Of a DNA stretch of 64,000 bases, positions 2,971 through 58,084 are shown piece by piece. The first letter of the stretch is position 1. Every line of letters begins with the position of its first letter. The DNA is from Nymphaea colorata (Eukaryota > Streptophyta > Magnoliopsida > Nymphaeales > Nymphaeaceae): contig NC_045143.1 of NCBI RefSeq assembly GCF_008831285.2, positions 10,985,503 through 11,049,502 of the forward strand, read 5' to 3'. The translations under genes were made by a program, and so were the position numbers. A model generated the notes under the pieces. It did not search any database and was not told the origin of the DNA. It saw only the letters and a list, made by a program, of their open reading frames with translations.

Positions 2971-3317
2971 TAGGCCAGGGCATTGGGCCGGCCCGATAAG
3001 AGTCTGGCTCCGGCCGGCCCACAGCCCGAAACAGGAGCCTGGGCTTGGCCCGACAACCCAAAACCGGAGCCCGAACCAGGCCCAGTTAAAATAAAAAATA
3101 TTTTAAAATATAAAATAAAAATTTTAAATATAAAATATATTCTTAATAATAAAATATATACTATTAAAACATATCGGGTTGACCCGGTAGGTTATTGGGC
3201 AGGCTCGGGCTGGTTATTTTGGGCCCAAACCTAGGCCTGATCTGACTGGGTGCCGGGTATGCACCTGGTACCCAATGGCACCCGTCGGAAGGGTACCCGG
3301 CCCAATGCCCAGCCTTA
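2971..3317. mobile_element. hAT-type MITE with GC-rich ends (family F1)
   Basis: The left end reads TAGGCCAGGGCATTGGGCCGG and the right end CCGGCCCAATGCCCAGCCTTA, which are inverted copies. The core (about 3090-3175) is almost pure A/T. The flanking octamers GTGTCTAA and ATCTCTGA agree at 5 of 8 positions. In the sister copies the octamer is GTCTCTAA on both sides (23698-23705 and 27748-27755). An 8-bp target duplication and TA-GGG-like ends fit the hAT superfamily; the family assignment is inferred. No transposase is encoded. Confidence 0.75.
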
Positions 3318-3539
3318 ATCTCTGATGTGCCGAGTTTGCTTCTTAAGATTGACCAAGCCCATAATGAATATATCAGCTACTTGATTTCTGCTGGAAACAC
3401 TTGTTTTCATCATGTCTGAATTTATGCAGACATGAACGGTATGGCATTCAAGCTCAATGTGTTTGATGATATATGAATGACTGCTTTGTTATCACAAAAT
3501 TAAATTTGCTCTATCTTCATATTTAACATAAAAAAATCT

Positions 3540-4095
3540 GTGAAATGGCTCTAATCCAAATTAACTCCACAAACAGTGTCATCGACCAGTACTCGGTCTC
3601 AGCTGGGGACCTGGATACAGGATACCTCTTCCTGCTTCTGTCTTCCATGAAATAGAACTTACGCCTAAGAAAATACAGCATTCCATCACTGAACATCTTG
3701 TATCTTTGCAAGACTCCCAATAGGCATCACTATATACTCTCAAGTAAGTAGAGTTTTCTTCCTTCAACAAAACTAGCCTTGTCTGGTTTCCCTTTGAGAT
3801 AAGAAACCACCCCCATAGCTGCTTCCATATGAAGTACCATTGCTGAGACAAGATTTAATGCGAAACTCCTTGTTGGGATAAGATTTAAACTGCTTTATGC
3901 ACTCTTCATTATTCCATGCTATTATAAGGTCATCAACATATACCAACACAATGGAGCATATATAGCTTGTTTAGGAAACATGGAATCGGGTAATCTGCTT
4001 TAGAGTGCAGATACATACTTAATCAAGGCATTTGAAAACTTAAAAAGCCAACATCCTGGGGCTTTCCTTAAGCCCACACAATGACTTCCAATGTC
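3540..4095 (-). pseudogene. Ty1/copia pol relic: RT C-terminus and RNase H (copy A)
   Basis: Read on the minus strand, the segment runs from a KSLCGLKESPR-like motif (near 4080) to the RT active-site motif VYVDDLIIA (near 3940). It continues to an RNase H start resembling SDAxWESCKDTRCSV (about 3740-3700) and a SRSPAETEYWSM-like motif (near 3590). Frames are broken between these blocks. The motif order is that of copia polyproteins. The fragment abuts an oppositely oriented copia piece at about 4097. Confidence 0.85.
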
Positions 4096-4097
4096 AT

Positions 4098-5640
4098 TTG
4101 ATCAAAACAGGTTTACAAGGTGAAGTACAATGCCAATACCTTTGTTGCTCGGTACAAAGTATGATTTGTTGCCAGAGAATTTCATTAAGAAGAAGGGATA
4201 TACTATACATAGACGTTATAATCTGGTGGTCAAGGCCACCGCTATTTGTGTTCTCTTACGCATGGCAGTGCAATATGAATGGCCCATTGATCAACTATAT
4301 TTCAAAAATGTTTTCCTCTATGGTGTACTAAAAGAAGAGTTCTACATGGTTCGATGCGAGGGGAATGACGATCCTTAACTACTGGCTTATGTGCACAAAT
4401 AGGTAAGGCAATATATGGATTCAAGCAGACCTTGTGTGCATGGTATCAACAACTTAGTAGCTCTATTAAGAAAGAAGGATTTTGGGCTCCACAATCAGAT
4501 GCCTCTATATTTATTGCATCCACAAAGAGCCACTGAATCTATGTTAATGTTTATGTTAATGACATCCAGGTGACTAGAATGTTAGCTGCTCTTATTCAAA
4601 AAATGATACATGGGTTATGTACGTCTTTTTCTTTAAGGACTTGGGAGTAACTTCATTTGGGCCTCAAAGTAAGCTATATTGATTGGAGAGTCTACTTTAG
4701 CCAGCAAAACTACTTAATGTGCCCATATGGAGAATGCCAAACCTTGGTCTATACCATTAGCAGGGAATTCTATTTTGAACGATCAACCATTCTTTGGTTC
4801 ATATATTTATAGACACATAACAGGAGCCATGTTATACATATGTCTCTCTAGATCTAATGTAGCATGCATTTCCCATAAACTGAATATGCCAGTACATGCA
4901 TCCACCCAACAATGAATACTTGGTCATGGTCCAGGGCACCTTGTGTGTGATCTCAAAGGAATTATAAGCTATTGTCTATGCTTTCCACCATTCCTCTCAC
5001 TGCTGACCTTGCATACTTATGCCAACACTATTTGATTTGGTTGCAGGGGCAAAGATAGGTGGGGGGTCTCTGTGGAGCATGCACTCCACGGAACCTATTC
5101 TCTAAAATCATAATTTAATTTTTAGATCTATGTGGACTTATGTCCAAATATATAGGATAGCCGCATGAGACCTGGTGTCATTGCTCCACGGCCAACTGAA
5201 AATTTGTTAACCCTATATTTAGTGTAAATTATGGCTCCACCCCTGCTTGGCTGTCTAATCTGTTAGAAACCAAATAGGTTTTTTGTTGCTTTCCTTAGTG
5301 ACAATGTAGTGCTGTGGCATCTTGTAAACAATGGATAGTTGCCCAATCAAGTATGACCACTGAGTATGGCTTTAACCTATGCTGAAAGAATTGGGTCTCA
5401 ACATGAACTAAGCACCTCATTTATAGTGACCATATCAATTCCGTTTACCTTGCATCCAATCAAGCATTTCATGCAATTAGAACAAAACCAGGAAGATTCT
5501 GTTTTGTTTAACATCATGTAAACAAGGAACACGTTCAATTACAATTTATTCATTCACAAGAGCAACATGTGGATAGCTTGATGAATCTACTTTTAATTGC
5601 TTGTTCACTCAGCTTGAAGGAGGCAATTAAAAATAATGAT
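4098..5640 (+). pseudogene. Ty1/copia pol relic: RT N-terminus to RNase H (copy A)
   Basis: On the plus strand, 4130-4378 gives an RT-like stretch (LLRMAVQYEWPIDQLYFKNV, then GVLKEEFYMV), matching the copia 'QLDVxNAFLxGxLxEEVYM' block. 4680-4913 gives YICLSRSNVACISHKL, the post-RT segment. 5280-5640 holds RNase H-like blocks (ASNQAFHAIRTK). Stops and frameshifts separate the blocks. A 202-bp MITE interrupts it at 5044-5245. It is a dead element. Confidence 0.85.
5044..5245. mobile_element. hAT-type MITE, CAGGGGC family F2 (copy A)
   Basis: The ends are CAGGGGCAAAG and CTCCACCCCTG (inverted repeats). The octamers outside them, TTTGGTTG and CTTGGCTG, agree at 6 of 8 positions, consistent with an 8-bp hAT-like target duplication. 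Copy B retains perfect 11-bp termini (CAGGGGCGGAG / CTCCGCCCCTG). There is no coding capacity. Confidence 0.75.
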
Positions 5641-6650
5641 CCCATAAGATGTAACAATCTGCCCTACATCGACACTACACTCAGATGCGTAATTTTGTGG
5701 ATCTGAACATTCCCTCTAGCATTGGTTTTGTTCCTCTAAAAAAAAAACTAGGAAAATTAGTCACGTGACTAACCCTCTCATAAGTTCATGAAGATTTCTC
5801 AAAATCTTCAATATGAGACTAAACCCACAACAAGGTGCTAAATAAGATGTTATGCCTAATGTAAATGAAGGACATGACTTAAATCATCATGTGGATTATA
5901 ATGGTAAGGCATCATAACGCTGGAATATGTTCTTCCATAGCCGTCACCTTTGTGTAAATGTCTTCCCTTCTTGTGTCCAATGCAGCAGCCTGTATTTGTA
6001 AGTGTTGCATCATAGCGACATGATGTGTGAGATGAGCCAAGAATTCATAAAAAGCATCCTTTACATGTTAAACCTGGATCATGAAAAGCCACACTTGTTG
6101 TCAAGAAGAAAGAATGAGGTTTTCAACATGCATAATTATATCACCATGTTGCAAATGATGTGGGGGAAGGCATTATAGCTTACACTCATTTGCATAAGAA
6201 TGTTGATAATATGCATAAACACACCGTGCATCCTAGTTAAGGGGTTAAAAAAAAAGAAGCTGTGTAGTTTGGAAATTTGCAGGGGAAGGGGCCAGAGAAG
6301 CCTCTTAAATTTATAGATATTGTACAACAGTTAAGCCAATTGGGAGTCAAATTGAACTCGCTTGTGTATGTTGAACTTAAGCTTGACTTGTTTAATAAAT
6401 GAGTCAAGCTTGAGATTGGGTTAAATCTCAAATTATAAAGTGTTCAAGTTATGCAAAGGTTGACTTGTTTAAACTCTACTCAGCTCATGTCCATCCTGTT
6501 TGTTAATCTTCATGGGTAGGTCGGTTTTTTGACCAATTTTAACATTTCTTTTGAGGTTTTCATTTTTATTTAAGTAAAAAATATGAATCAAGAGACACAA
6601 GCTTAAACAAATCGAACTCGAGTCAAGAAATATGTGACCATTCTATCTGA
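5641..6650. other. Non-coding flank of copia relic, shared with segment B
   Basis: 5690-6235 is nearly identical to 26700-27245 and has no gene. It may be the 3' non-coding/LTR part of the plus-strand copia relic, but I could not define LTR ends. 6320-6640 is rich in GACTTGTTTAA/GAGTCAAGCTTGA repeats that recur at 27340, 30590 and 59440, a MITE-like family. Confidence 0.45.
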
Positions 6651-7300
6651 GATATACAAAAGAGGTAGTCATGGAGGATGCTCCAAACAACTTGATGAAT
6701 GTAAGCAACCTCTCTGAGGGTGCCGAGGAACTAGTTGTAAGTAATTATGTTTTCTTGATGCACTTTATGATTTCATGTATGGAATAAACTAGTTATCTTG
6801 TCTGAATTGTTTGTGTAGAAGCATGTGGTTAGACTAACTGTGTATAAGGCTTAAAACACTTTCACGAAATAAACTATAAGAATACCAACCTAGGATATGT
6901 GAGAAACCTATTTGGGAGTAGTAGGAACAAGTTGCGAAATCCTTAAACCAAGAGACAAAGGCACAATAGGGTACCCATGTGAGGCAAGAGGCCGTGTTAG
7001 GAGAAACGATTGCCATGTGGAGAGGTTAAAAGGACTAGCAGAGGTGTACGAAACCATGCAGAGGTTAAGGGACTGGAAGAACTATAAAAGAATCATTCAT
7101 ATGAATTACAAAGAATATGAAACATCGTCACAAAAAAGAATATGAAACATCGTCACAAAAAATATATTATTACAAAGAAAGGCTTAAACTCATTAAAACA
7201 AATCTAGGGAGAAAATTTTTATAAATATATGTAGACGATCTAAGACTGGCAACGAACAAAGAAGAATCACAGATAGAAGGTGATATGGATAAAATGACTA
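6651..7300 (+). other. Segment A-specific stretch with a short RT-like motif
   Basis: This part is absent from B and C. A 28-bp direct duplication (GAATATGAAACATCGTCAC twice) lies at about 7110-7160. At 7222-7270 the plus strand can be read IYVDDLRLATNKEES, resembling a copia RT active-site block, but the match is short and without flanking RT motifs. Confidence 0.35.
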
Positions 7301-7339
7301 GATTGCACATAGAGATACATCCCTACTTAAACTGAAGCT

Positions 7340-7825
7340 ATGTACGTACATTTTCATAGTTGCCCAGTCAGAGAGGTCAGCAGTCGCCTCTTATATCGAG
7401 AGGGAGGATGGGTTGGGACTCGTGAAGCAAGTTATGTGGACACCCCTATGCATGAAAAAATTGTGTATATGATATGCAATGACCAAATTGCCCCCACTGA
7501 AATAACAAAACAAAACTTTTTCACAAGGCAAAAAGAAGTATGAAAAAGTTAAAAAATTCTAAATGATCCATTTTTTAATAAAAAACTTTAAAATTGCCCT
7601 CCATCCCCTTTGGTGCATACCTCAAGTGTGCACGCAACTAGATATGCGGGACTTGGGGATATATTTAACCTAACGTCTTAACTTTAAAAATTCTAAATTA
7701 TCCATTTTTTAATGAAAAACTTCAAAAGTGCCTTCCATCCCCTTTGGTGCATACTTTAACTTAGCTTGCATGTATAGTTAGCGTTTGCGTTGACCGCTTA
7801 TCTTGAGTGTCTCATTCTTGACTTA
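7340..7825. repeat. MITE-like module with internal duplication, shared by A and C
   Basis: The block with CCATCCCCTTTGGTGCATAC occurs twice here (near 7600 and 7735) and twice in segment C (near 31275 and 31420). It includes 'ATGACCAAATTGCCCCC', a type of sequence common in the ends of plant DNA transposons. No protein is encoded. It ends where the FDM-like array begins. Confidence 0.5.
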
Positions 7826-8484
7826 ATATGCTTAGATATTTTGATACATCACACTTCTCTTCATTATCCTATATTACTCTTTGCCCTACTACGGAGCAGC
7901 GCAGAAAAAATATTTTATATTAAAAAAGATTATTACAAACCAATCAGGGCTGGCCAAGTCCAGGCCCTCGTTTCGGGTATCGAGCTCGGGCCCAAGCCCT
8001 ACTTTTAAACATCGGGGCAGCCCGGACCCGGTTCTTACTGGGTTGGGCAAGCTCGGACTCAGTTCTTACTCGGTTCTTACCCGGCTCTTACTGGGCCTTG
8101 CTCGGTTACAATAATTTTTTTAATAAATATAAAACAAACTTTTTTATAGACATAAAATAATTTTTTAAATATAAAAAATATTTTTTAATAATAAAATATA
8201 CACTAGTAATACTAAAAATATTTAAGTGTTATTCGACCGGATCGGGCCCCTATCGGGCCGATCGGGGCCGACGCATCAGCCCGTACCCAGGCCTTTATCG
8301 GGCAGGGCTGCATGATGCCCGCATTTCCCAATGTCTAGTGATGCCTAGCTATTTTTTAATGAGTATCTGAATTTCATGTTTTTATGACCTGTCTTTTCTT
8401 CGTATTGTATATATGCAAAATGGACGAGCTGTCTTCCAAAATGTGTACTTGTTAGCTAACCATGTTAAATTTATATATTTTTAG

Positions 8485-8954
8485 TATGTTGTCAGATATG
8501 CTAATCTTCAAGCACCCAGTATGGAGCAGCACAAGACTGATGAAAATTTAATGAAGCTACATGAGGATAATAAGGTCCATGAAAGCTTCTCTATGTTGAA
8601 AATTTTTGATGTGTAGTTTAGTTTAACAAAATTTATTGCTTGTCATACAAAAATTGAGTATGATCTAAATAATGCTTATTAAATGTACAAAGAGAGAAAG
8701 AGGAATCACACAACAAGGTTCTTGATATGCAAAAGAAGCTGGAGGACAAGTAGAATTTGGAGGTAGAGATAAAGAAGTTGAAAGGAAAAATACAAATGAT
8801 GGAGCATATTAGATACAAAATGGAGTCCATGAGGACCCTGCTAAAGGAAAAAAAAACTGAGCTGAATGACATGGATCAACTGAATACCACTATCTTTGCC
8901 AAAGAACATATTGTAAATGATGAATTACAAGAGGCCCGAAAAGAATTAATAGTT
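8485..8954 (+). pseudogene. FDM/IDN2-like coiled-coil fragment, long module 1
   Basis: Exon A is 8485-8574, with TTTTTAG before it and 30 clean codons including EQHKTDENLMKL. Exon B is 8691-8954 (88 codons): REKEESHNKVLDMQKKL, then a TAG stop at 8751-8753, then LEVEIKKLKGKIQMM and NDELQEARKELI. The last motif and the ADEN/REKEE-like context are typical of the coiled coil just before the XH domain in plant FDM/IDN2 proteins, which act with dsRNA in RNA-directed DNA methylation. Family placement is from memory of those motifs. The TAG sits where the family usually has a glutamine codon. The exon-B acceptor is AA here, but AG in module 2. The XS and XH domains are absent. Confidence 0.7.
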
Positions 8955-9217
8955 GTATGGATCGTTCTCCTTGTTCTCCTTTTTTTTCGCATATTGTTAT
9001 TATGCTTAGATATTTTGATACATCACACTTCTCTTCATTATCCTATATTACTCTATGCTCAACTGTTGATCCGGCCAGAAAAATTATTTTATATTTAAAA
9101 AAATTATTATAACTGATCAGAGACCGGTGAAGCCCAGCCCGGGTTTCGGGTATTGGGCTTGGGCCCTGGCCAAACTTTTGGACATCGGGCCAGCTTGGAA
9201 CCAGTTTTTACTGGGTT

Positions 9218-9621
9218 GATGAAAATTTAATGAAGCTGTATAAGGATCATAAGGTCTACGAAAGCTTCACTCTATTGAAAATTTTCGATGTGTAGTTTAG
9301 TCTAACAAAATTTATTGTTTGTCATACAAAAATTGAGTATGGGCTAAATAAATGCACATTAAATGTACAGAGAGAGAAAGAGGAATCACACAACAAAGTT
9401 CTTGATATGCAAAAGAAGCTGAAGGACAAGTAGAATTTAGAGGTAGAGATAAAGAAGTTGAAAGGAAAAATACAAATGATAGAGCATATTAGAGACAAAA
9501 TAGACTCCATGAAGACCCAGTAACTGAGCTGAATGACTTGGATAAACTGAATATCACCATCTTTGCCAAAGAGCAGATTGTAAATGATGAATTACAAGAG
9601 GCCCGAAAAGAATTAATAGCT
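9218..9621 (+). pseudogene. FDM/IDN2-like fragment, short module 1
   Basis: Exon A begins abruptly at GATGAAAATTTAATG, fused to MITE sequence (ACTGGGTT). Exon B' is 9371-9621, with the acceptor GTACAG intact. A 13-bp deletion near 9520 relative to long exon B (ACCCTGCTAAAGG... reduced to ACCCAGTAACTG) shifts the frame, and the shared TAG stop is present. Confidence 0.7.
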
Positions 9622-10302
9622 GTATGAATCATTCTCCTTTTCCTTCGCATAATGTTATTATGTTTAGATATTTTGATATGTCGCACTTCTCTTCATTATC
9701 CTATATTACTCTATGATCAACTATCCAGTAAGAAAATTTTTTATTTTATATTTAAAAAAATTTATTATAACTGATCAGTGGCCGGCGAAGCCCAACTTGG
9801 GTTTCGGGTATCGGACTCGGGCCCTAGCCCGACTTTCGGACATCGGGCCAGCCTGGAACTGGTTCTTACTAGGTCAGGCCAGCCGGACTAACTCTTACTC
9901 CGGTCTTACCAGGCCTCGCTCAGTCGCAATAAAAAATTTGTTTTATAAATATAAATAAAAACTTTTTTATTAACGTAAAATAATTTTTTAAATTAAATAA
10001 ATATTTTTAATAATAAAATATATATTATTCATAACATAAATATTTAAGTGTTATTGGACTGGATTGGGCCCCCGTCTTGCTGATCCGGCCCATCAGGCGC
10101 GGACCCAAGCCTGTATCGGATAGGGCTGCATGATGGCTGCATTTGCCAATGTCTAGTGATGCCTAGCTGTTTTTTAACGAGTATTGAATTTTTATGTTCA
10201 TATGACTTGTCTTTTCTTTGTATTGTATATGTGCAAAATGGATGAGTTGTCTCTTAAAATGTGTACATGTTAGGTTACTATGTTAAATTCCTATATTTCT
10301 AG

Positions 10303-10766
10303 TATGCTGCCAGAGATGCTAATCTTCAAGCAGGATTAGAGGAAGATTGATGAAAAATTTAATAAAGCTATATGAGTATCATAAGGTCTACAAAAGCTTT
10401 GCTTTGTTGAAAATTTTCGATGTGGAGTTTAGTTTAACAAAATTTATTGTTTGTCATACAAAAATTGAGTATGGATTAAATAATGCTTATTAAATGTATA
10501 GAGAGAGAAAGAAGAAACACATAAGAAGTTCTTGATGTGCAAAAGAAGTTGGAGGACAAGTAGAATTTGGAGGTAGAGGGATAAAGAAGTTGAAAGGAAA
10601 AATACAAATGATGGAGCATATTAGAGACAAAATGGAGTCCATGAGGACCCTGCTAAAGGAAAAAGAAACTGAGCTGAATGACTAGGATCAACTGAATACC
10701 ACTATCTTTGCCAAAGAGCATATTGTAAATGATGAATTACAAGAGGCCCGAAAAGAATTAATAGTT
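10303..10766 (+). pseudogene. FDM/IDN2-like fragment, long module 2
   Basis: Exon A (10303-10385) keeps the acceptor TTTCTAG but has lost 7 bp and its frame. Exon B (10502-10766) keeps the acceptor TATAG, has a 1-bp deletion near 10532, carries the shared TAG stop, has a private 2-bp insertion (GAGGGATAAAG) and a second in-frame TAG near 10682. Confidence 0.7.
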
Positions 10767-11020
10767 GTATGGATCGTTCTCCTTTTTTTTCGCATATTGT
10801 TATTATGCTTAGATATTTTGATACATCACACTTCTCTTCATTATCCTATATTACTCTATGCTCAACTGTTGATCCGGTCAGAAAAATTATTTTATATTTT
10901 AAAAAATTATTATAACTGATCAAAGACCGGTGAAGCCCAGCCCGGGTTTCGGGTATTGGGCTTGGACCTTGGACCAACTTTCGGACATCGAGCCAGCTTG
11001 GAACCAGTTTTTACTGGGTT

Positions 11021-11423
11021 GATGAAAATTTAATGAAGCTGTATAAGGATCATAAGGTCTACGAAAGCTTCACTCTATTGAAAATTTTCGATGTGTAGTT
11101 TAGTCTAACAAAATTTATTGTTTGTCATACAAAAATTGAGTATGGGCTAAATAATGCACATTAAATGTACAGAGAGAGAAAGAGGAATCACACAACAAAG
11201 TTCTTGATATGCAAAAGAAGCTGAAGGACAAGTAGAATTTAGAGGTAGAGATAAAGAAGTTGAAAGGAAAAATACAAATGATAGAGCATATTAGAGACAA
11301 AATAGACTCCATGAAGACCCAGTAACTGAGCTGAATGACTTGGATAAACTGAATATCACCATCTTTGCCAAAGAGCGGATTGTAAATGATGAATTACAAG
11401 AGGCCCGAAAAGAATTAATAGCT
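11021..11423 (+). pseudogene. FDM/IDN2-like fragment, short module 2
   Basis: Same layout as short module 1: MITE-fused exon A, acceptor GTACAG still present before exon B' at 11173, and the same 13-bp deletion. It is the last short module that still has the exon-B' acceptor. Confidence 0.7.
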
Positions 11424-12103
11424 GTATGAATCATTCTCCTTTTCCTTCGCATACTGTTATTATGCTTAGATATTTTGATATGTCGCACTTCTCTTCATTA
11501 TCCTATATTACTCTATGATCAACTATCCAGTAAGAAAATTTTTTATTTTATATTTAAAAAAATTTATTATAACTGATCAGTGGCCGGCGAAGCCCAACTT
11601 GGGTTTCGGGTATCGGACTCGGGCCCTAGCCCGACTTTCGGACATTGGGCCAGCCTGGAACTGGTTCTTACTAGGTCAGGCCAGCCGGACTAACTCTTAC
11701 TCCGGTCTTACCAGGCCTCGCTCAGTCGCAATAAAAAATTTGTTTTATAAATATAAAATAAACTTTTTTATTAACGTAAAATAATTTTTTAAATTAAATA
11801 AATATTTTTAATAATAAAATGTCTATTATTCATAACATAAATATTTAAGTGTTATTGGACTGGATTGGGCCCCCGTCTTGCTGATCCGGCCCATCAGGCG
11901 CGGACCCAAGCCTGTATCGGATAGGGCTGCATGATGGCTGCATTTGTCAATGTCTAGTGATGCCTAGCTGTTTTTTAACGAGTATTGAATTTTTATGTTC
12001 TTATGACTTGTCTTTTCTTTGTATTGTATATGTGCAAATTGGATGAGTTGTCTCTTAAAATATGTACATGTTAGGTTACTATGTTAAATTCCTATATTTC
12101 TTG

Positions 12104-12565
12104 TATGCTGCCAGAGATGCCAATCTTCAAGCAGGATTAGAGGAAGATTGAAGAAAAATTTAATAAAGCTATATGAGGATCATAAGGTCTACAAAAGCTT
12201 TGCTTTGTTGAAAATTTTCGATGTGGAGTTTAGTTTAACAAAATTTATTGTTTGTCATACAAAAATTGAGTATGGTCTAAATAATGCTTATTAAATGTAT
12301 AGAGAGAGAAAGAAGAAACACACAAGAAGTTCTTGATGTGCAAAAGAAGTTGGAGGACACGTAGAATTTGGAGGTAGAGATAAAGAAGTTGAAAGGAAAA
12401 ATACAAATGATGGAGCATATTAGAGACAAAATGGAGTCCATGAGGACCCTGCTAAAGGAAAAAGAAACTGAGCTGAATGACTTGGATCAACTGAATACCA
12501 CTATCTTTGCCAAAGAGCATATTGTAAATGATGAATTACAAGAGGCCCGAAGGGAATTAATAGTT
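12104..12565 (+). pseudogene. FDM/IDN2-like fragment, long module 3
   Basis: The exon A acceptor has changed from AG to TG (TTTCTTG before TATGCTGCC). Exon B is 12303-12565, with donor GTAAGG. The shared TAG follows GACACG, where modules 1, 2 and 7 read GACAAG. An open frame from 12368 to 12676 covers the coiled-coil part and runs into the intron; it is not a gene. Confidence 0.7.
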
Positions 12566-12818
12566 GTAAGGATCAGTCTCCTTTTTTTTCGCATACTGTT
12601 ATTATGCTTAGATATTTTGATACATCGCATTTCTCTCCATTATTTTATATTACTCTATGCTCTACAATTGATCTAGGCAAAAAAATTATTTTAAATTTAA
12701 AAAAATATTATAACTGATCAGGGGCCGGTGAAGCCCAGCCCGGGTTTCGGGTATTGGGCTTGGGCCCTGGCCCAACTTTCGGACATCGGGCCAGCTTGGA
12801 ACCAGTTTTTACTGGGTT

Positions 12819-13185
12819 GATGAAAATTTAATGAAGCTGTATAAGGATTATAAGGTCTACGAAAGCTTCACTCTATTGAAAATTTTCGATGTGTAGTTTA
12901 GTCTAACAAAATTTATTGTTTGTCATACAAAAATTGAGTATGGGCTAAATAATGCTTATTAAATGTTGATATGCAAAAGAAGCTGAAGGACAAGTAGAAT
13001 TTAGAGGTAGAGATAAAGAAGTTGAAAGGAAAAATACAAATGATAGAGCATATTAGAGACAAAATAGACTCCATGAAGACCCAGTAACTGAGCTGAATGA
13101 CTTGGATAAACTGAATATCACCATCTTTGCCAAAGAGCGGACTGTAAATGATGAATTACAAGAGGCCCGAAAAGAATTAATAGCT
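12819..13185 (+). pseudogene. FDM/IDN2-like fragment, short module 3
   Basis: A deletion of about 40 bp removes the exon-B' acceptor and first codons (AAATGTTGATATGCAAAAG). All later short modules share it, and it accounts for the drop from about 1802 to 1762 bp per unit. Confidence 0.7.
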
Positions 13186-13865
13186 GTATGAATCATTCTC
13201 CTTTTCCTTCGCATACTGTTATTATGCTTAGATATTTTGATATGTCGCACTTCTCTTCATTATCCTATATTACTCTATGATCAACTATCCAGTAAGAAAA
13301 TTTTTTATTTTATATTTAAAAAAATTTATTATAACTGATCAGTGGCCGGCGAAGCCCAACTTGGGTTTCGGGTATCGGACTCGGGCCCTAGCCCGACTTT
13401 CGGACATCGGGCCAGCCTGGAACTGGTTCTTACTAGGTCAGGCCAGCCGGACTAACTCTTACTCCGGTCTTACCAGGCCTCGCTCAGTCGCAATAAAAAA
13501 TTTGTTTTATAAATATAAAATAAACTTTTTTATTAACGTAAAATAATTTTTTAAATTAAATAAATATTTTTAATAATAAAATATATATTATTCATAACAT
13601 AAATATTTAAGTGTTATTGGACTGGATTGGGCCCCCGTCTTGCTGATCCGGCCCATCAGGCGCGGACCCAAGCCTGTATCGGATAGGGCTGCATGATGGC
13701 TGCATTTGTCAATGTCTAGTGATGCCTAGCTGTTTTTTAACGAGTATTGAATTTTTATGTTCTTATGACTTGTCTTTTCTTTGTATTGTATATGTGCAAA
13801 TTGGATGAGTTGTCTCTTAAAATATGTACATGTTAGGTTACTATGTTAAATTCCTATATTTCTTG

Positions 13866-14327
13866 TATGCTGCCAGAGATGCCAATCTTCAAGCAGGATT
13901 AGAGGAAGATTGAAGAAAAATTTAATAAAGCTATATGAGGATCATAAGGTCTACAAAAGCTTTGCTTTGTTGAAAATTTTCGATGTGGAGTTTAGTTTAA
14001 CAAAATTTATTGTTTGTCATACAAAAATTGAGTATGGTCTAAATAATGCTTATTAAATGTATAGAGAGAGAAAGAAGAAACACACAAGAAGTTCTTGATG
14101 TGCAAAAGAAGTTGGAGGACACGTAGAATTTGGAGGTAGAGATAAAGAAGTTGAAAGGAAAAATACAAATGATGGAGCATATTAGAGACAAAATGGAGTC
14201 CATGAGGACCCTGCTAAAGGAAAAAGAAACTGAGCTGAATGACTTGGATCAACTGAATACCACTATCTTTGCCAAAGAGCATATTGTAAATGATGAATTA
14301 CAAGAGGCCCGAAGGGAATTAATAGTT
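13866..14327 (+). pseudogene. FDM/IDN2-like fragment, long module 4
   Basis: By eye this is indistinguishable from long module 3: TG in place of the exon-A acceptor, GACACG-TAG, donor GTAAGG. It lies exactly 1762 bp downstream of that module. Confidence 0.7.
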
Positions 14328-14580
14328 GTAAGGATCAGTCTCCTTTTTTTTCGCATACTGTTATTATGCTTAGATATTTTGATACATCGCATTTCTCTCC
14401 ATTATTTTATATTACTCTATGCTCTACAATTGATCTAGGCAAAAAAATTATTTTAAATTTAAAAAAATATTATAACTGATCAGGGGCCGGTGAAGCCCAG
14501 CCCGGGTTTCGGGTATTGGGCTTGGGCCCTGGCCCAACTTTCGGACATCGGGCCAGCTTGGAACCAGTTTTTACTGGGTT

Positions 14581-14947
14581 GATGAAAATTTAATGAAGCT
14601 GTATAAGGATTATAAGGTCTACGAAAGCTTCACTCTATTGAAAATTTTCGATGTGTAGTTTAGTCTAACAAAATTTATTGTTTGTCATACAAAAATTGAG
14701 TATGGGCTAAATAATGCTTATTAAATGTTGATATGCAAAAGAAGCTGAAGGACAAGTAGAATTTAGAGGTAGAGATAAAGAAGTTGAAAGGAAAAATACA
14801 AATGATAGAGCATATTAGAGACAAAATAGACTCCATGAAGACCCAGTAACTGAGCTGAATGACTTGGATAAACTGAATATCACCATCTTTGCCAAAGAGC
14901 GGACTGTAAATGATGAATTACAAGAGGCCCGAAAAGAATTAATAGCT
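14581..14947 (+). pseudogene. FDM/IDN2-like fragment, short module 4
   Basis: Carries the same ~40-bp and 13-bp deletions as short module 3 and lies 1762 bp downstream of it. Confidence 0.7.
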
Positions 14948-15627
14948 GTATGAATCATTCTCCTTTTCCTTCGCATACTGTTATTATGCTTAGATATTTT
15001 GATATGTCGCACTTCTCTTCATTATCCTATATTACTCTATGATCAACTATCCAGTAAGAAAATTTTTTATTTTATATTTAAAAAAATTTATTATAACTGA
15101 TCAGTGGCCGGCGAAGCCCAACTTGGGTTTCGGGTATCGGACTCGGGCCCTAGCCCGACTTTCGGACATCGGGCCAGCCTGGAACTGGTTCTTACTAGGT
15201 CAGGCCAGCCGGACTAACTCTTACTCCGGTCTTACCAGGCCTCGCTCAGTCGCAATAAAAAATTTGTTTTATAAATATAAAATAAACTTTTTTATTAACG
15301 TAAAATAATTTTTTAAATTAAATAAATATTTTTAATAATAAAATATATATTATTCATAACATAAATATTTAAGTGTTATTGGACTGGATTGGGCCCCCGT
15401 CTTGCTGATCCGGCCCATCAGGCGCGGACCCAAGCCTGTATCGGATAGGGCTGCATGATGGCTGCATTTGTCAATGTCTAGTGATGCCTAGCTGTTTTTT
15501 AACGAGTATTGAATTTTTATGTTCTTATGACTTGTCTTTTCTTTGTATTGTATATGTGCAAATTGGATGAGTTGTCTCTTAAAATATGTACATGTTAGGT
15601 TACTATGTTAAATTCCTATATTTCTTG

Positions 15628-16089
15628 TATGCTGCCAGAGATGCCAATCTTCAAGCAGGATTAGAGGAAGATTGAAGAAAAATTTAATAAAGCTATATGA
15701 GGATCATAAGGTCTACAAAAGCTTTGCTTTGTTGAAAATTTTCGATGTGGAGTTTAGTTTAACAAAATTTATTGTTTGTCATACAAAAATTGAGTATGGT
15801 CTAAATAATGCTTATTAAATGTATAGAGAGAGAAAGAAGAAACACACAAGAAGTTCTTGATGTGCAAAAGAAGTTGGAGGACACGTAGAATTTGGAGGTA
15901 GAGATAAAGAAGTTGAAAGGAAAAATACAAATGATGGAGCATATTAGAGACAAAATGGAGTCCATGAGGACCCTGCTAAAGGAAAAAGAAACTGAGCTGA
16001 ATGACTTGGATCAACTGAATACCACTATCTTTGCCAAAGAGCATATTGTAAATGATGAATTACAAGAGGCCCGAAGGGAATTAATAGTT
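15628..16089 (+). pseudogene. FDM/IDN2-like fragment, long module 5
   Basis: Same sequence state as long modules 3 and 4, at the 1762-bp period. Confidence 0.7.
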
Positions 16090-16342
16090 GTAAGGATCAG
16101 TCTCCTTTTTTTTCGCATACTGTTATTATGCTTAGATATTTTGATACATCGCATTTCTCTCCATTATTTTATATTACTCTATGCTCTACAATTGATCTAG
16201 GCAAAAAAATTATTTTAAATTTAAAAAAATATTATAACTGATCAGGGGCCGGTGAAGCCCAGCCCGGGTTTCGGGTATTGGGCTTGGGCCCTGGCCCAAC
16301 TTTCGGACATCGGGCCAGCTTGGAACCAGTTTTTACTGGGTT

Positions 16343-16709
16343 GATGAAAATTTAATGAAGCTGTATAAGGATTATAAGGTCTACGAAAGCTTCACTCTAT
16401 TGAAAATTTTCGATGTGTAGTTTAGTCTAACAAAATTTATTGTTTGTCATACAAAAATTGAGTATGGGCTAAATAATGCTTATTAAATGTTGATATGCAA
16501 AAGAAGCTGAAGGACAAGTAGAATTTAGAGGTAGAGATAAAGAAGTTGAAAGGAAAAATACAAATGATAGAGCATATTAGAGACAAAATAGACTCCATGA
16601 AGACCCAGTAACTGAGCTGAATGACTTGGATAAACTGAATATCACCATCTTTGCCAAAGAGCGGACTGTAAATGATGAATTACAAGAGGCCCGAAAAGAA
16701 TTAATAGCT
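16343..16709 (+). pseudogene. FDM/IDN2-like fragment, short module 5
   Basis: Same deletions as short modules 3 and 4, at the 1762-bp period. Confidence 0.7.
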
Positions 16710-17389
16710 GTATGAATCATTCTCCTTTTCCTTCGCATACTGTTATTATGCTTAGATATTTTGATATGTCGCACTTCTCTTCATTATCCTATATTACTCT
16801 ATGATCAACTATCCAGTAAGAAAATTTTTTATTTTATATTTAAAAAAATTTATTATAACTGATCAGTGGCCGGCGAAGCCCAACTTGGGTTTCGGGTATC
16901 GGACTCGGGCCCTAGCCCGACTTTCGGACATCGGGCCAGCCTGGAACTGGTTCTTACTAGGTCAGGCCAGCCGGACTAACTCTTACTCCGGTCTTACCAG
17001 GCCTCGCTCAGTCGCAATAAAAAATTTGTTTTATAAATATAAATAAAAACTTTTTTATTAACGTAAAATAATTTTTAAATTAAATAAATATTTTTAATAA
17101 TAAAATATATATTATTCATAACATAAATATTTAAGTGTTATTGGACTGGATTGGGCCCCCGTCTTGCTGATCCGGCCCATCAGGCGCGGACCCAAGCCTG
17201 TATCGGATAGGGCTGCATGATGGCTGCATTTGCCAATGTCTAGTGATGCCTAGCTGTTTTTTAACGAGTATTGAATTTTTATGTTCTTATGACTTGTCTT
17301 TTCTTTGTATTGTATATGTGCAAATTGGATGAGTTGTCTCTTAAAATATGTACATGTTAGGTTACTATGTTAAATTCCTATATTTCTTG

Positions 17390-17851
17390 TATGCTGCCAG
17401 AGATGCCAATCTTCAAGCAGGATTAGAGGAAGATTGAAGAAAAATTTAATAAAGCTATATGAGGATCATAAGGTCTACAAAAGCTTTGCTTTGTTGAAAA
17501 TTTTCGATGTGGAGTTTAGTTTAACAAAATTTATTGTTTGTCATACAAAAATTGAGTATGGTCTAAATAATGCTTATTAAATGTATAGAGAGAGAAAGAA
17601 GAAACACACAAGAAGTTCTTGATGTGCAAAAGAAGTTGGAGGACACGTAGAATTTGGAGGTAGAGATAAAGAAGTTGAAAGGAAAAATACAAATGATGGA
17701 GCATATTAGAGACAAAATGGAGTCCATGAGGACCCTGCTAAAGGAAAAAGAAACTGAGCTGAATGACTTGGATCAACTGAATACCACTATCTTTGCCAAA
17801 GAGCATATTGTAAATGATGAATTACAAGAGGCCCGAAGGGAATTAATAGTT
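17390..17851 (+). pseudogene. FDM/IDN2-like fragment, long module 6
   Basis: The exon state matches modules 3-5, but the MITE just upstream carries the edge-type variants AAATAAAAAC (17041) and TTTGCCAATG (17229). This makes it a mosaic between inner and outer units. Confidence 0.7.
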
Positions 17852-18104
17852 GTAAGGATCAGTCTCCTTTTTTTTCGCATACTGTTATTATGCTTAGATA
17901 TTTTGATACATCGCATTTCTCTCCATTATTTTATATTACTCTATGCTCTACAATTGATCTAGGCAAAAAAATTATTTTAAATTTAAAAAAATATTATAAC
18001 TGATCAGGGGCCGGTGAAGCCCAGCCCGGGTTTCGGGTATTGGGCTTGGGCCCTGGCCCAACTTTCGGACATCGGGCCAGCTTGGAACCAGTTTTTACTG
18101 GGTT

Positions 18105-18471
18105 GATGAAAATTTAATGAAGCTGTATAAGGATTATAAGGTCTACGAAAGCTTCACTCTATTGAAAATTTTCGATGTGTAGTTTAGTCTAACAAAATTT
18201 ATTGTTTGTCATACAAAAATTGAGTATGGGCTAAATAATGCTTATTAAATGTTGATATGCAAAAGAAGCTGAAGGACAAGTAGAATTTAGAGGTAGAGAT
18301 AAAGAAGTTGAAAGGAAAAATACAAATGATAGAGCATATTAGAGACAAAATAGACTCCATGAAGACCCAGTAACTGAGCTGAATGACTTGGATAAACTGA
18401 ATATCACCATCTTTGCCAAAGAGCGGACTGTAAATGATGAATTACAAGAGGCCCGAAAAGAATTAATAGCT
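18105..18471 (+). pseudogene. FDM/IDN2-like fragment, short module 6
   Basis: Same deletions as the other inner short modules. The intron/MITE that follows is 1 bp shorter in its A-run near 18606. Confidence 0.7.
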
Positions 18472-19151
18472 GTATGAATCATTCTCCTTTTCCTTCGCAT
18501 ACTGTTATTATGCTTAGATATTTTGATATGTCGCACTTCTCTTCATTATCCTATATTACTCTATGATCAACTATCCAGTAAGAAAATTTTTTATTTTATA
18601 TTTAAAAAATTTATTATAACTGATCAGTGGCCGGCGAAGCCCAACTTGGGTTTCGGGTATCGGACTCGGGCCCTAGCCCGACTTTCGGACATCGGGCCAG
18701 CCTGGAACTGGTTCTTACTAGGTCAGGCCAGCCGGACTAACTCTTACTCCGGTCTTACCAGGCCTCGCTCAGTCGCAATAAAAAATTTGTTTTATAAATA
18801 TAAATAAAAACTTTTTTATTAACGTAAAATAATTTTTTAAATTAAATAAATATTTTTAATAATAAAATATATATTATTCATAACATAAATATTTAAGTGT
18901 TATTGGACTGGATTGGGCCCCCGTCTTGCTGATCCGGCCCATCAGGCGCGGACCCAAGCCTGTATCGGATAGGGCTGCATGATGGCTGCATTTGCCAATG
19001 TCTAGTGATGCCTAGCTGTTTTTTAACGAGTATTGAATTTTTATGTTCTTATGACTTGTCTTTTCTTTGTATTGTATATGTGCAAAATGGATGAGTTGTC
19101 TCTTAAAATATGTACATGTTAGGTTGCTATGTTAAATTCCTATATTTCTTG

Positions 19152-19613
19152 TATGCTGCCAGAGATGCCAATCTTCAAGCAGGATTAGAGGAAGATTGAT
19201 GAAAAATTTAATAAAGCTATATGAGGATCATAAGGTCTACAAAAGCTTTGCTTTGTTGAAAATTTTCGATGTGGAGTTTAGTTTAACAAAATTTATTGTT
19301 TGTCATACAAAAATTGAGTATGGTCTAAATAATGCTTATTAAATGTATAGAGAGAGAAAGAAGAAACACACAAGAAGTTCTTGATGTGCAAAAGAAGTTG
19401 GAGGACAAGTAGAATTTGGAGGTAGAGATAAAGAAGTTGAAAGGAAAAATACAAATGATGGAGCATATTAGAGACAAAATGGAGTCCATGAGGACCCTGC
19501 TAAAGGAAAAAGAAACTGAGCTGAATGACTTGGATCAATTGAATACCACTATCTTTGCCAAAGAGCATATTGTAAATGATGAATTACAAGAGGCCCGAAG
19601 AGAATTAATAGTT
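19152..19613 (+). pseudogene. FDM/IDN2-like fragment, long module 7 (array end)
   Basis: This is the last exon pair. It shares the TG acceptor loss with modules 3-6 but reads GACAAG-TAG and AGATTGATG like module 2. The following MITE copy is cut after GGGGCCGGCCAAGCCCAGG, where repeat family R begins. Confidence 0.7.
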
Positions 19614-19786
19614 GTAAGGATCAGTCTCCTTTTTTTTCGCATACTGTTATTATGCTTAGATATTTTGATACATCGCATTTCTCTCCATTATTTTATATTA
19701 CTCTATGCTCTACTATTGATCTAGGCTAAAAAATTATTTTAAATTAAAAAAAATATTATAACTGATCAGGGGCCGGCCAAGCCCAG

Positions 19787-20850
19787 GGGCTCTCTTAGGG
19801 AGATATCTTCGTCATCTTGAAGGTTCATCCAAGGTGACCTTAGGACCATTCAAAGGAGGAGACTCATTCCTAATATCATCTTTGAGGTATGTAGTCATCC
19901 TCTTATTTATTTTCATTTTCTCTTGCCACATTTTCATGGCCATGCCAAAAAGCTCTAAAGATTTCATCTCCAGAGTTGAGAGTTATTTTTGAATGTATCA
20001 GGAATATTAGCAAGGGGGCGAAATAAATTTTATTTCTTCATTTACTTTAAAAAAATATACTTGATATATCGCTTTGTTTATCATTTATGTTTGAGATAAT
20101 GTTCATGAGAGATAGATTAATTTTCCTTAATTAAGGAGCAAATGCAAGGTGAGAATGAGTCTTTGGGTTGAGATTTTTTTGTTCTTATGTTGATTTTTGA
20201 AGTTGAGATTTGTCCAACCTGGGAAAGCCCCTTCACAGATATGTATATGTTAAAATGTATCTTCATGTCATTCTCACGTTTAGTTTCTTTCTTAATCACC
20301 CGATTAAAAACCCCAATAAGTGCTTTGTTACGTTGCTTCCCATTTCATGAGTATTTAATTTTCTTTTATACCCAATAGTGAGATAAATTTTCTTGTAATA
20401 AGCAAAATAATAATGTTTTATGATTGCATATAAAAATATTGAAATCATGTTTTTCAAAAGATTTTTGAAAACAAGAACTCTCTTTAATGAAGCCTTGGAA
20501 ACTTGGCGTAGGCTCATGCATGAGCCCAAGTTCCTCTCTAGCCTACATAGAAAACTTGAAACATACATAAAAAACTTGAAGTTGGATATTTTCAAGTTAT
20601 TTCTTGATTCCAACTCTCATGAAAGCATATACATATATACATGTTATATACATATACATGCACATGACTATTTCTCTTTGTGTTTTTCTCTTTATGATTT
20701 AACATATTATTTTATAAATTCTTATATAAGTACATGCATAAATAAATATATATAGGTGTGTTCCACTTTCTCTCTCTCTCTTATCTTTTTCTAAAATCTT
20801 CTTTTTCCTCCCCATTTGATTTAATACTTTCTTTTGACAAACTTTATATA

Positions 20851-22824: not shown

Positions 22825-23705
22825 TTCCCCCTTCTCGTAAATAGACAATGAATACGACATTTTGAAGAGCATAAAATTTAAAAATGATTCAGATCTTTTG
22901 AATATATTCATAGCCACGAAAATCTTTCCTACCTTTTAAACAAAGAGGTATTTCTCTTGAACGGACAGGAAAAATGTGATAAAAATACGATAAGTTTTTT
23001 TTAAAAATAAACAAAAACTAAAAATAAGAAAAAATAAACTAAAAATAAACTAAGTGAGAAACTAATAATGCAAACATAAAAATAAGTAGGCTTGCAATAA
23101 ATAAAAATTAGAAAATAAATAAACATTTTGACATTAAAAAACGTAAAAAAATGAATAAAATGAAAAACAGTGAAAAAAAGTATTTTTTTTCAATTTTTTT
23201 GTGTTATTAGAAAAAGGTGCTTTTTCAAAGTTTTAAACGATCGTATTTTATTATTACAAAACAATTCGAAAGGAAATATCTGACCGAATTGAAAACAGTG
23301 AAAAAAATGTTATTTCCAAATAAACAGTTGTGCATTCTTTTCTAATTTAAAAATGTATTTTATAAATAAATATTTCTCAGATCTGTTAATATCTGACTGA
23401 AACAGATCACTGCAATGGATACACAAGGAAAGAACAGTGTAAAGAGAGGGAAAGCACAAAACAGATCCTGCATCTTCTGTTATTTAGAAAGAATGAGCTT
23501 GTACATCTTTATGCATTGCCACAAAATTATAATTTAATTTTTAGGAAAATACAAAAAAATAAAATTCGAAATCAATTCTCTTGTGATCACAACCAAGTGT
23601 GGGCCCTGTGGAATCACTTTCTAATCACTGAATTTTATCTGATTCTTGATACTTTTATTTTCTACACTTACACTCACCCTCAAACTGGTGCATATGAGTC
23701 TCTAA

Positions 23706-23895
23706 TAGGCCTAGGTATCCAGCTTGCCCGACCCAGAGCCCGGCCCAGTTAAAATAAAAAGTATTTTTGTAAATAAAAAATAAAAATTTTAATACAAGAT
23801 ATATTCTTAATGACAAAATACATATGATTATTAAAATACAAATAATATTAAAACATATCGGGTGGACGGAGGCCGTCCCGGTAGGTTATTGGGCC
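23706..23895. mobile_element. F1 MITE, left part (segment B)
   Basis: The octamer GTCTCTAA at 23698-23705 precedes the left end TAGGCCTAGG. The A/T core and GGTTATTGGGCCCG follow. The right end and its flank are deleted, with sequence resuming at the TTGTTCTCATCATG flank. Confidence 0.65.
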
Positions 23896-24049
23896 CGTTG
23901 TTCTCATCATGTCTGAATTTATGGAGACATGCACCACATGGCAATCGACCTCAATGTGTTTTTTTTGCGCTGATGAAACACTCGTTTGATGAGATATGAA
24001 TGACTGCTTTGTTATCGCAAAATTAAATCTGCTGAATCTTTATGTTTAA

Positions 24050-24600
24050 CATAAAAAAAATCTGTGAAACGGTTCTAATCCAAATTAACTCCACAAACAG
24101 TGCCATCGACCAGTATTCGGTCTCAGCTGAGGACCTGGATACCTCTTCCAGCCTCTCTTCGATGAAATAGAACTTACGCCGAAGAAAATACAGCATTCCA
24201 CGACTGAACATCTTGTATCGTTACGAGACTCCCAATCGGCATCACAATATACTCTCAAGCAAATAGAGTTTTCTGTCTTCAACAAAACTGGCCTTGTCTG
24301 GTTTCCCTTTGAGATAATAAACCACTCCCGTAGCTGCTTCCATATGAAGTACTAGTGCTGAGACAAGATTTAATGTGAAACTCCTTGTTGGGATAAGATT
24401 TAAACTGCTTTATGCACTCTTCACTATTCCCTGCTATTATAAGGTCATCAACATATACTAACATAATGGAGCATATATAGCTCGTTTATGAAATATGAAA
24501 TCGAATATCTTATTTAGAATGCAGATACATACTTATTCCAGGCGTTTCAAAACCTAGAAAACCAACATCTTGGGGTTTCCTTAAGCCCATACAATGACTT
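24050..24600 (-). pseudogene. Ty1/copia RT/RNase H relic (copy B)
   Basis: On the minus strand it carries LVYVDDLIIAGNSEECIKQF (24460-24400), then RVYCDADWESRNDTRCSV (near 24240) and SRSSAETEYWSM (near 24110). Frames are broken between these blocks. It is colinear with 3540-4095. Confidence 0.88.
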
Positions 24601-24887
24601 CCAATTCATTTGATCAAAACAGGTTTACAAGGTGAAGTACAACCCCAATACCTTTGTTGTTCGGTACAAAGTATGATTAGTGGCCAAAGAATTTCATTAA
24701 GAAGAAGGAATATACTATACATAGACATTTTAATCTGGTGGTCAAGGCCACCGCTACTTGTGTTCTCTTACGCATGGCAATTCAATATGAATGGCCCATT
24801 GATCAACTATATTTCAAAAATGTCTTCCTCAATGGTGTCCTGAAAGAAGAGTTATACATGGTTCGATGCGAGGGCCATGCAGATCCT

Positions 24888-25360
24888 TAGGGCTGCACAA
24901 CGAGCCGACCAACTTGGGCTCGATTGAAACTTGCTCGAAAAAAGTCGGCTTATGTTTGACTCGTTTATAAACAAGCCAAGTTCGAGCTTACAAATATACT
25001 CAAAACGATAAACGAGTTGAGTTCGAGTTTCAAGAACTCGACTCATTTATACTCAACTCGGCTCGCACCAGTACTTTATATAATATTTTCCAAAACCGAT
25101 TCACCAAATCACTGGTTTTAACTTTGAAGGTAAAAACAAATTTTCACAAGTTACACAAGTTAATGCTTACATGAGTTAAACAAGTTACGCGAGTTAACGC
25201 TTATACGAGTTAAACGAGAGTCAAGTTCGAGCTTGATTTTGTGTAGTCTAGTTGAGTCGAGCTCGCTTTTGCTATAAGGTGCTCGACTCGAGTGTGAGCC
25301 GAGCTCGAGGTCGAGTTTTTTGACCCAAGTCGTGCTTGGCTCGGCTCGTGTGCTGCCCTA
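24888..25360. mobile_element. hAT-type MITE private to segment B
   Basis: The left end TAGGGCTGCACAACGAGCC and right end GGCTCGTGTGCTGCCCTA are inverted. The octamers outside are CAGATCCT (24880-24887) and CCAATCCT (25361-25368), 6 of 8 identical. Segments A and C have the uninterrupted site (GATCCTTAACT), which confirms an insertion. The interior is rich in CGAGTT/AACTCG and can fold extensively. It is non-coding. Confidence 0.88.
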
Positions 25361-26043
25361 CCAATCCTTAACTATTGTCGTCTTATGTGAGGAAACTAGA
25401 TAAGGCAATGTATGGATCCAAACTGACCACACGTGGACGGTATCAACAACTTAATTGCTATATTAAGAAATGATTTTGGGCTCCTTAGGCTCCTCTATAT
25501 TTATTGCATCCACAAAGCCACTGAATCTGTGTTCATGTTTATGTTAATGACGTCCTGGTGACTATAATGTCAGCTGCACTTATTCAATAAATGATACATA
25601 GGTTATATACATCATTCTCTTAAAGGATTTGGAACGAACTCCCCTTCATTTGGACTTCAAAGTAAGCTATATTGATGGGAGAGTCTACTTTAGACAGCAA
25701 AACCACATAATGTGCCCATATGGAGAATGCCAAACCATGCTCTATACCAATAGCAGGGCGTCCAGGCTGCCTATTTAGAACCATCAACCATTCTTTGATT
25801 TGTATCTTTATAGATACATAATAGGGGCCCCGTTATACATTTGTCTGTCTAGATCTAATGTAGCATGCATTTTCTATAAATTGCACATGCCAGAACATGC
25901 ATCCACCCAACAATGAATACTTGGTCGTGGTCAAGGGCACCTTGTGTGCGATCTCAAAGGAAATAGAACTATTGTCTATGATTTCTGCCATCCCTCTCAC
26001 TGCTGACCTTACATACTTATGCCAACACTATTTGATTTGGTTG

Positions 26044-26261
26044 CAGGGGCGGAGATAGGTGGGGTCTCTATGGCCATGTGGGGGTGTGTGCTCCACAATG
26101 TCAATTCTCTGAAAGCATAATTTAATTGTTGGATCTGCGTGGACCTGTGTTCAGTATGACAGCCCCACGAGACCTAGTGTCATTGATCCATGGCCAATTG
26201 AAAATTTGTTAATCATATATTTAATGCCTCATGGAAAAAACAAAATCTGGCTCCGCCCCTG
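26044..26261. mobile_element. hAT-type MITE F2 (copy B), best-preserved ends
   Basis: Perfect 11-bp inverted termini, CAGGGGCGGAG and CTCCGCCCCTG. It corresponds to 5044-5245 in segment A and the truncated 30384-30550 in segment C, so the insertion predates the triplication. Confidence 0.82.
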
Positions 26262-27614: not shown

Positions 27615-27747
27615 TATATCGGGTCAACATGGGCCGTCCCAGTAGGTTATTAAGCCGACTCTGGCTGGTTTTGTCGGGTCCGAACCTGGGCCCGATTGGA
27701 CCAGGTACTGAGTACCTGACAGGTACCCGGCCCGATGCCCAGCCCTA
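27615..27747. mobile_element. F1 MITE, right part (segment C)
   Basis: The right end CCCGATGCCCAGCCCTA is followed by GTCTCTAA (27748-27755), the same octamer that precedes the left end in segment B. The left half is missing at the B/C junction. Confidence 0.7.
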
Positions 27748-57908: not shown

Positions 57909-58084
57909 CCTGATAACAGTGCCACTCCTTACTATTACCATTTGTCATTTACATCTAAGAATGAGTGCTCGAATGATTGATAACAGGACAAAGTTGAAGA
58001 TGTGGTTGTCATATATAGTAACAAGCACATGGACAAAGGGGGCTTCAATATTGAGGCGATCAACATTCCCTCTCCAGGCAGCTC

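Follow-up and report, generated by a model that had tools for sequence, protein, structure and literature searches.

The window analysed here, 64,000 nucleotides of the Nymphaea colorata genome (contig NC_045143.1, here C6, positions 10985503-11049502), contains a tandem array that is very probably a dead, low-copy repeat made from an internal piece of a gene with an XH and presumably an XS domain, which would have been bridged by a transposable element, spread to other places and homogenised by unequal exchange. The array is composed of a full-length module, M1, followed by six short-long dimers and the start of a further short module. Each module has two exons, A and B, separated by a small intron, and these exons are, judging from the XH exons that adjoin their genic counterparts, derived from the IDN2/FDM-like family. 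All components of the array are of known kinds, and it is most likely ordinary duplication debris. New here are M1 as an apparently older third module type, a further, monomeric array on contig C1 in which the modules are joined in the same way, and relics on C2 and C6.

Layout of the array

Self-BLAST, anchor searches (in which a few mismatches were tolerated) and the monomer alignment place the array at 7823-19786; the first-pass annotation, which had put it at 7826-19787, was right about the presence of a tandem array, with limits that are now slightly revised. There are 13 complete head-to-tail modules, seven long and six short, and a 140-bp start of a 14th. The anchors comprise 13 cores each of exon A and exon B, which alternate strictly, the full 3' end of the intervening filler in seven copies, and a direct fusion of filler and exon A in six copies with zero mismatches. 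Anchors and monomer alignment thus confirm the alternation of seven long and six short modules described earlier, and the self-alignment of 7.8-19.8 kb, proposed then as a check, finds the tandem array, including a self-match of 6.8 kb at 99.7% identity, far above chance.

The order in the long modules (7/13) is intron, filler, intron, exon A, small intron, exon B. In the short modules (6/13) the middle of this layout is gone and the filler is fused directly to exon A. The monomers start at 7823, 8997, 9655, 10800, 11457, 12599, 13219, 14361, 14981, 16123, 16743, 17885 and 18505; long modules measure 1174, 1145 or 1142 bp, short modules 658, 657 or 620 bp, and the dimers 1803 bp, 1799 bp and then four times 1762 bp. 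The features of the array are:

7823-19786, forward strand: whole array, M1, six short-long dimers and 140 bp of the 14th module (self-BLAST, anchors, monomer alignment)
7823-8996, forward: module M1, old full-length monomer, apparently a third lineage with a probably mosaic 3' end (divergence profile, tree branch)
7891-8320, forward: filler of M1, bridging the introns that follow exon B and precede exon A (gene homology breaks off and returns there)
8485-8574, forward: M1 exon A, 90 bp (by alignment with its genic counterpart)
8575-8690, forward: small intron of M1, 116 bp (same length in genic C6:3847k and C10:395k)
8691-8954, forward: exon B of M1, 264 bp, with a TAG stop (the motif is in 13/13 modules)
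8997-10799, forward: dimer SL1, short M2 (8997-9654) and long M3 (9655-10799)
9205-9236, forward: filler/exon-A fusion in M2, the same in all six short modules (anchors, monomer alignment)
10800-12598, forward: dimer SL2 (dimer comparison)
12599-14360, forward: dimer SL3; its short module lacks the exon B acceptor and first bases (36 bp; common to SL3-SL6)
14361-16122, forward: dimer SL4, the same as SL3 in all 1762 bp (dimer comparison)
16123-17884, forward: dimer SL5, two substitutions and two gap columns compared with SL3 (dimer comparison)
17885-19646, forward: dimer SL6, eight substitutions and two gap columns compared with SL3 (dimer comparison)
19647-19786, forward: start of the 14th module, short-type, ending soon after the beginning of the MITE-like stretch (monomer alignment)

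Gene family of origin

Copies of exons A and B without filler beside them are found in the same genome (407.8 Mb in 783 contigs searched) at C6:3847k, C6:3147k and C10:395k. These three genic copies lie directly upstream of matches to the XH domain (PF03469) at C6:3846742, C6:3147045 and C10:396140, which score 57.6, 53.9 and 49.9 bits (cut-off 22.2), the XH exon following exon B after 220-238 bp. The modules are 83-90% identical to the genic copies over 469-736 aligned bases. Exon A is 90 bp in all three genic copies, the small intron is 116 bp where the locus has one exon-B copy (C6:3847k and C10:395k), and exon B is 279 or 283 bp, as compared with 264 bp in M1. At C6:3847k exons A, B and the XH exon are open; at C10:395k exon B is broken by a frameshift; and C6:3147k is open through exon A, a second exon B and the XH exon, with an extra partial exon B in the gene. 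In this last locus (L035, C6:3143001-3152500, at 4381-5576 of it) the exon duplication lies inside the gene with no filler beside it, and short matches to the filler AT core occur about 2 kb off.

The assignment of the exons to the IDN2/FDM-like family, made earlier from the letters, is therefore upheld by the genic copies. This is also in agreement with a comparison with Arabidopsis IDN2 (a single subject, in a provisional sequence), where the similarity is collinear with residues 379-498 at an E-value of 8e-23 and has a z-score of 21 against 2000 shuffles. IDN2 is a factor of RNA-directed DNA methylation (RdDM), and its coiled coil mediates homodimerisation (PMC3342958). Since exons A and B fall within the coiled-coil stretch ahead of XH, translations of the array have no Pfam match above the cut-off, and in the PDB the full array query finds nothing at E<=1 and a 48-residue piece one match at E 1.2; the family is accordingly assigned through the neighbouring XH exons. 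Peptide scans of viral-contig and genome-contig collections found no relative.

Other loci of the family were seen on C6. At L038 (C6:3827501-3836500, at 4280-4870 of it) two exon-B copies are inverted with respect to each other, near weak XH-like matches (E 0.005), and two more XH-domain loci, C6:238093 and C6:253942, lie 16 kb apart.

Decay of the modules

The earlier description of recognisable exons with splice junctions holds for the GT donors, which are kept after exon A and after exon B in 13/13 modules, and only partly for the exon B acceptor, of which the AG is in place in 8/13: M1 reads AA, and in M6, M8, M10 and M12 the acceptor was lost with the 36-bp deletion. As the genomic intron is retained, the module is not a retrocopy. 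Exon B has a TAG stop in every module (13/13), at a position where the genic copies have CAG (C6:3147k), CAA (C6:3847k) and CAT (C10); three genic copies were used for this check, a fourth, C6:2617k (partial exon B and XH exons), being left out. When considering five module pairs, which are not independent, the raw counts of silent and replacement codon changes are 4/6, 3/8, 4/12, 3/14 and 5/14, and changes that are mostly replacements do not indicate coding constraint. With TAG in all 13 modules and exon changes that look neutral, the modules appear to be dead, and nothing points to a coding function.

The modules could be read as the repetitive coding exons of a single long gene for a coiled-coil protein, as the exons and most splice sequences are recognisable and the genic C6:3147k has an exon-B duplication within the gene. 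This reading is contradicted by the shared stop and has practically no probability: there are also frame-breaking deletions and the mostly replacement codon changes, and outside the array the window has no further match to the provisional IDN2 sequence (best E 4.7). A coding function was rejected on the stop, the frameshifts and the replacement changes.

Dimeric organisation and its history

When the array is cut at each exon A and the pieces are compared over their aligned parts, the long (L) and short (S) monomer types are 88.3-89.8% identical, whereas whole dimers are 96.3-100% identical. Successive dimers are thus closer to each other than the two monomers within a dimer, which is the pattern of a dimeric higher-order repeat and bears out the two-monomer organisation proposed earlier. 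The last four dimers, SL3-SL6, are 99.5-100% identical, with 0-8 substitutions among themselves, and SL1 and SL2 differ from them by 28-44 substitutions.

The short type has a deletion joint where 494 bp compared with M1, 473 bp compared with M3 and 472 bp compared with M5 are missing, with 2-3 bases common to both sides (read by eye from the printed letters). The joint is the same in 6/6 short modules, and one deletion of about 0.48 kb common to all of them argues for a deletion before the dimer was amplified, as the first-pass annotation had suggested for the fusion of the element to exon A. All six short modules also have a 13-bp deletion in exon B, six of the seven long modules (M1 is spared) an 8-bp deletion in exon A, and the short modules of SL3-SL6 (4/6) the 36-bp deletion of the exon B acceptor and start. 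These changes can be ordered: the short-type and 13-bp deletions, the 8-bp exon-A loss and the 36-bp loss. M1 is the only module with an exon A of the genic length of 90 bp. Older states are found at the edges of the array and near-identical copies in the middle and on the right, as is expected from unequal crossing-over.

M1 had been counted as the first of the long modules. It is full-length, but it is not, on its divergence profile and its place in the tree, a copy of L by descent; it is rather an older third lineage. Its divergence from L (M3, M5) is about 24% in intron and filler and 15-17% in exon A and the intron before it, and falls to 10-11% in the small intron and to 5% in exon B. 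In a tree of seven of the 13 window modules and five of the six C1 units (the C6:2.87 Mb relic, which aligned badly at 50-61%, was left out), M1, L and S are three deep branches, and the window modules group together in a single clade (99/98). The 3' end of M1, exon B and the following bases, is closest to L, and M1 is therefore probably a mosaic there. With M1 as a third lineage, the array reads as M1, six S-L dimers and a partial S.

It is very unlikely that the copy number is in part an assembly artefact, with identical dimers repeated by the assembler. SL3 and SL4 are indeed the same over 1762 bp, but every dimer outside this pair can be told apart, the edges are several percent apart, and an independent, diverged array on C1 carries the same joint.

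Filler and related loci

The filler, about 430 bp, bridges the intron after exon B and the intron before exon A; in M1 the gene homology breaks off at about 7890 and returns at about 8321. Within it is a 366-bp stretch (M1, about 7945-8310; it may extend to the left) that resembles a miniature inverted-repeat transposable element (MITE), with GC-rich ends and an AT core. A GC-ended MITE in the intron between modules had been described earlier; a MITE-like element is there, as part of a bridge and not simply of a native intron. The stretch resembles window positions 2965-3320, 23700-23900, 33070-33405 and 58060-58350, in each case above all 200 dinucleotide shuffles (better-strand z 7.6 to 19.7). 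Portions of the filler, chiefly in its AT core and 3' part, match 12/12 dispersed loci tested and two of the three window elements tested, the 58060 element failing at E 1e-5; the filler thus contains a short, non-coding, dispersed element, as expected of a MITE. The stretch begins with CAG and ends with CTG, and by eye the inverted match of its ends is poor; two of its relatives in the window have long GC-rich inverted arms.

The genome search, which scored 39 of 69 candidates and so gives minimum counts, finds at least one further array and a few relics outside the window. The further array, on C1 at 10.716-10.722 Mb, is a monomeric array of the exon A/exon B/filler unit, with six exon-B copies (one partial) and neighbour offsets of 1107, 1119 and 927 bp. 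Its units are 86-89% identical to each other and 84-88% identical to the window modules in the gene-derived part, and the joint from gene to filler to gene is as in the window array in 4/4 junctions aligned. Relic units are found at C2:26.67 Mb, with filler pieces on both sides, and at C6:2.87 Mb, also with filler pieces. Such an inventory does not agree with the term satellite, used earlier, in the strict sense of many-copy long arrays.

It is possible, if unlikely, that the module travelled as the cargo of a transposon (a Pack-TYPE element or a composite MITE) and that the arrays grew from inserted cargo. Plant Pack-TYPE elements are reported to capture gene pieces (PMC8903248), the filler family is dispersed (36 of the 53 listed matches of the dimer are filler only, three of these in the C6:2.87 Mb relic; the 53 are matches rather than loci, and the window's own array is outside the list), and the relics on C2 and C6 extend the occurrence of the unit beyond the two arrays. 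However, no terminal inverted repeat with a target duplication could be made out around a whole module, the C2 relic begins and ends inside the AT core when considering BLAST extents, and local duplication with segmental copying accounts for the same facts.

Proposed origin

Duplication with unequal exchange would have proceeded as follows. The source piece would run from exon A through the small intron and exon B, with short parts of the introns on either side. A first head-to-tail joint may have formed by ectopic exchange or repair via the MITE-like sequence, generating a monomer array as the older state, and the pseudogene piece would have spread to several loci. One monomer would then have lost about 0.48 kb in a microhomology-type deletion, and the short-long pair would have become the unit of unequal crossing-over and homogenisation, latest in SL3-SL6. 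The head-to-tail joint looks older than the present copies of either array, amplified separately at each place, as suggested by the separation of the window and C1 units in the tree.

Several observations do not fit this history easily. In the tree the window clade groups neither with the C1 units (58/88, weak) nor with the genes (93/90); it is the shared position of the joint, and not the tree, that suggests its single origin. No 8-bp target duplication is seen by eye flanking the element in the array, and about 54 bp before and about 10 bp after the element do not match the genes. Part of these 54 bp matches some dispersed copies in inverted orientation, so that the ends given for the element, and with them the proposed origin of the first joint, are provisional. 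At the position of the TAG stop, the five C1 units examined have TAG in one and CAG in two, the other two being different, and the stop may therefore predate the window array or be independent of it. Finally, exon B is less diverged than the introns when M1 is compared with the other modules, which could mean past constraint. Selection on exon B was considered; between L and S there is no gap in divergence between exon B and the small intron, and patchy exchange is therefore likelier than selection.

The DNA of the array is most likely a substrate of unequal crossing-over, and its sequence has no sign of a coding role. Gene copies, the monomeric C1 array and the dimeric, partly homogenised window array in one genome make a small-scale record of the birth of a higher-order repeat, and the deletion behind the second monomer type is still legible in the window array.

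A possible silencing role

When considering how the array works, a role of small interfering RNAs (siRNAs) is possible and is the main live alternative. The array would be a silencing locus, of which the transcripts are converted into 24-nt siRNAs acting in trans on intact XS/XH genes and tuning RdDM. Precedents are the ARR17-like partial duplicates, including exon 1, which give rise to small RNAs silencing the intact gene (PMC11580687), and the maize b1 locus, where seven 853-bp repeats make siRNAs and the repeats are reported to suffice for paramutation (PMC3798267). The identity of the modules to the genic copies is in agreement with such a role, and the inverted exon-B pair at L038 could form double-stranded RNA. 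In M1-M3, the oldest comparison, C/T and G/A differences are in excess at sites of CG and CHG type (odds 2.8, p 3.5e-6, uncorrected), which favours long methylation, and M3-M4 has a weaker excess (p 0.03), but in two of the four comparisons no excess by context reaches p<0.05. The CpG observed/expected ratio is 0.656 in the array and 0.491 on both sides, the opposite of long methylation decay; the GC-rich filler may lift the value of the array. No inverted exon copy of the array is present among the 120 longest self-matches, and the b1 siRNAs are described as insufficient by themselves (PMC3798267). On balance a silencing locus is highly unlikely. If array siRNAs did act in this way, tandem repeats would be linked to the control of an RdDM-type gene.

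A wider version, to which an even slimmer chance is given, is that a dispersed cassette of exon A, exon B and MITE seeded arrays on at least two chromosomes, with siRNAs of the arrays acting back on the XS/XH genes; a repeat derived from a gene of the silencing machinery would then set the dose of that machinery. Duplication debris remains the preferred description of the array.

Flanks and other features of the window

The flanks of the array are:

7316-7822, forward: left flank, a repeat relic also found near 30989-31565; homology ends at the start of the array
19785/19787-21842, forward: right flank, an AT-rich repeat of about 2 kb, with further copies at 46971-48887 and 52462-54217

Another copy of the right-flank repeat lies about 450 bp from the C1 array. 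This repeat was dropped as a candidate carrier, being on the other side at C1 and having two more copies in the window.

Elsewhere in the window, the left edge at 1-1512 is taken up by a tandem repeat separate from the array, with a period of about 167 bp that can also be read as 336 or 394 bp. Positions 3292-7822 and 23898-31565 are diverged relics of one repeat region, about 85-90% identical in pieces, with weak traces of a copia-type reverse transcriptase below the Pfam cut-off. A POT/PTR2 transporter family gene (PF00854) is found at 37230-39690, and a long coding-like frame at 60242-61126 has no Pfam match at E<=0.001.

Comparison with known systems

In alpha-satellite-type dimeric higher-order repeats, the monomers within a dimer differ more than successive dimers do. 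The window array is alike, with monomers 88-90% and dimers 96-100% identical; it is different in having 13 modules instead of thousands and at least one further array, and a centromeric place is not claimed. Compared with IDN2 and FDM, the Arabidopsis RdDM factors, exons A and B correspond to the coiled-coil stretch before XH, and the genic copies continue into XH, whereas the modules of the array lack both XS and XH parts and contain stops.

Text searches with the array peptide found no paper in open-licence PMC, and no report of an IDN2/FDM-derived tandem array was found there in titles and the starts of abstracts of the papers listed. The earlier statement that satellites recruiting exons are uncommon is doubtful. 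In a survey of Allium satellites, 190 of 275 and 210 of 316 tandem consensuses were left after filtering (PMC13116747); the 85 of 275 and 106 of 316 dropped were protein-coding, a class in which the survey counts paralogous genes and TE proteins together (PMC13116747), and on these figures tandem repeats with a coding origin do not form a rare class.

The ARR17 duplicates of the sex regions of poplar and willow (PMC11580687) are similar in that several gene scraps lie at a locus apart from the intact gene; the window array is regular and head-to-tail. The maize b1 hepta-repeat (PMC3798267) shares an about sevenfold tandem repetition within some kilobases, but the b1 units are 853 bp and are described as non-coding and as found only at that locus, and the window array is not known to take part in paramutation. 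With plant pseudogene arrays and low-copy tandem repeats, a class removed in satellite surveys such as PMC13116747, the array shares tandem units that include protein-coding pieces and, presumably, unequal exchange as the mechanism; it differs from them in its dimeric unit and in the MITE-like element at its joints.

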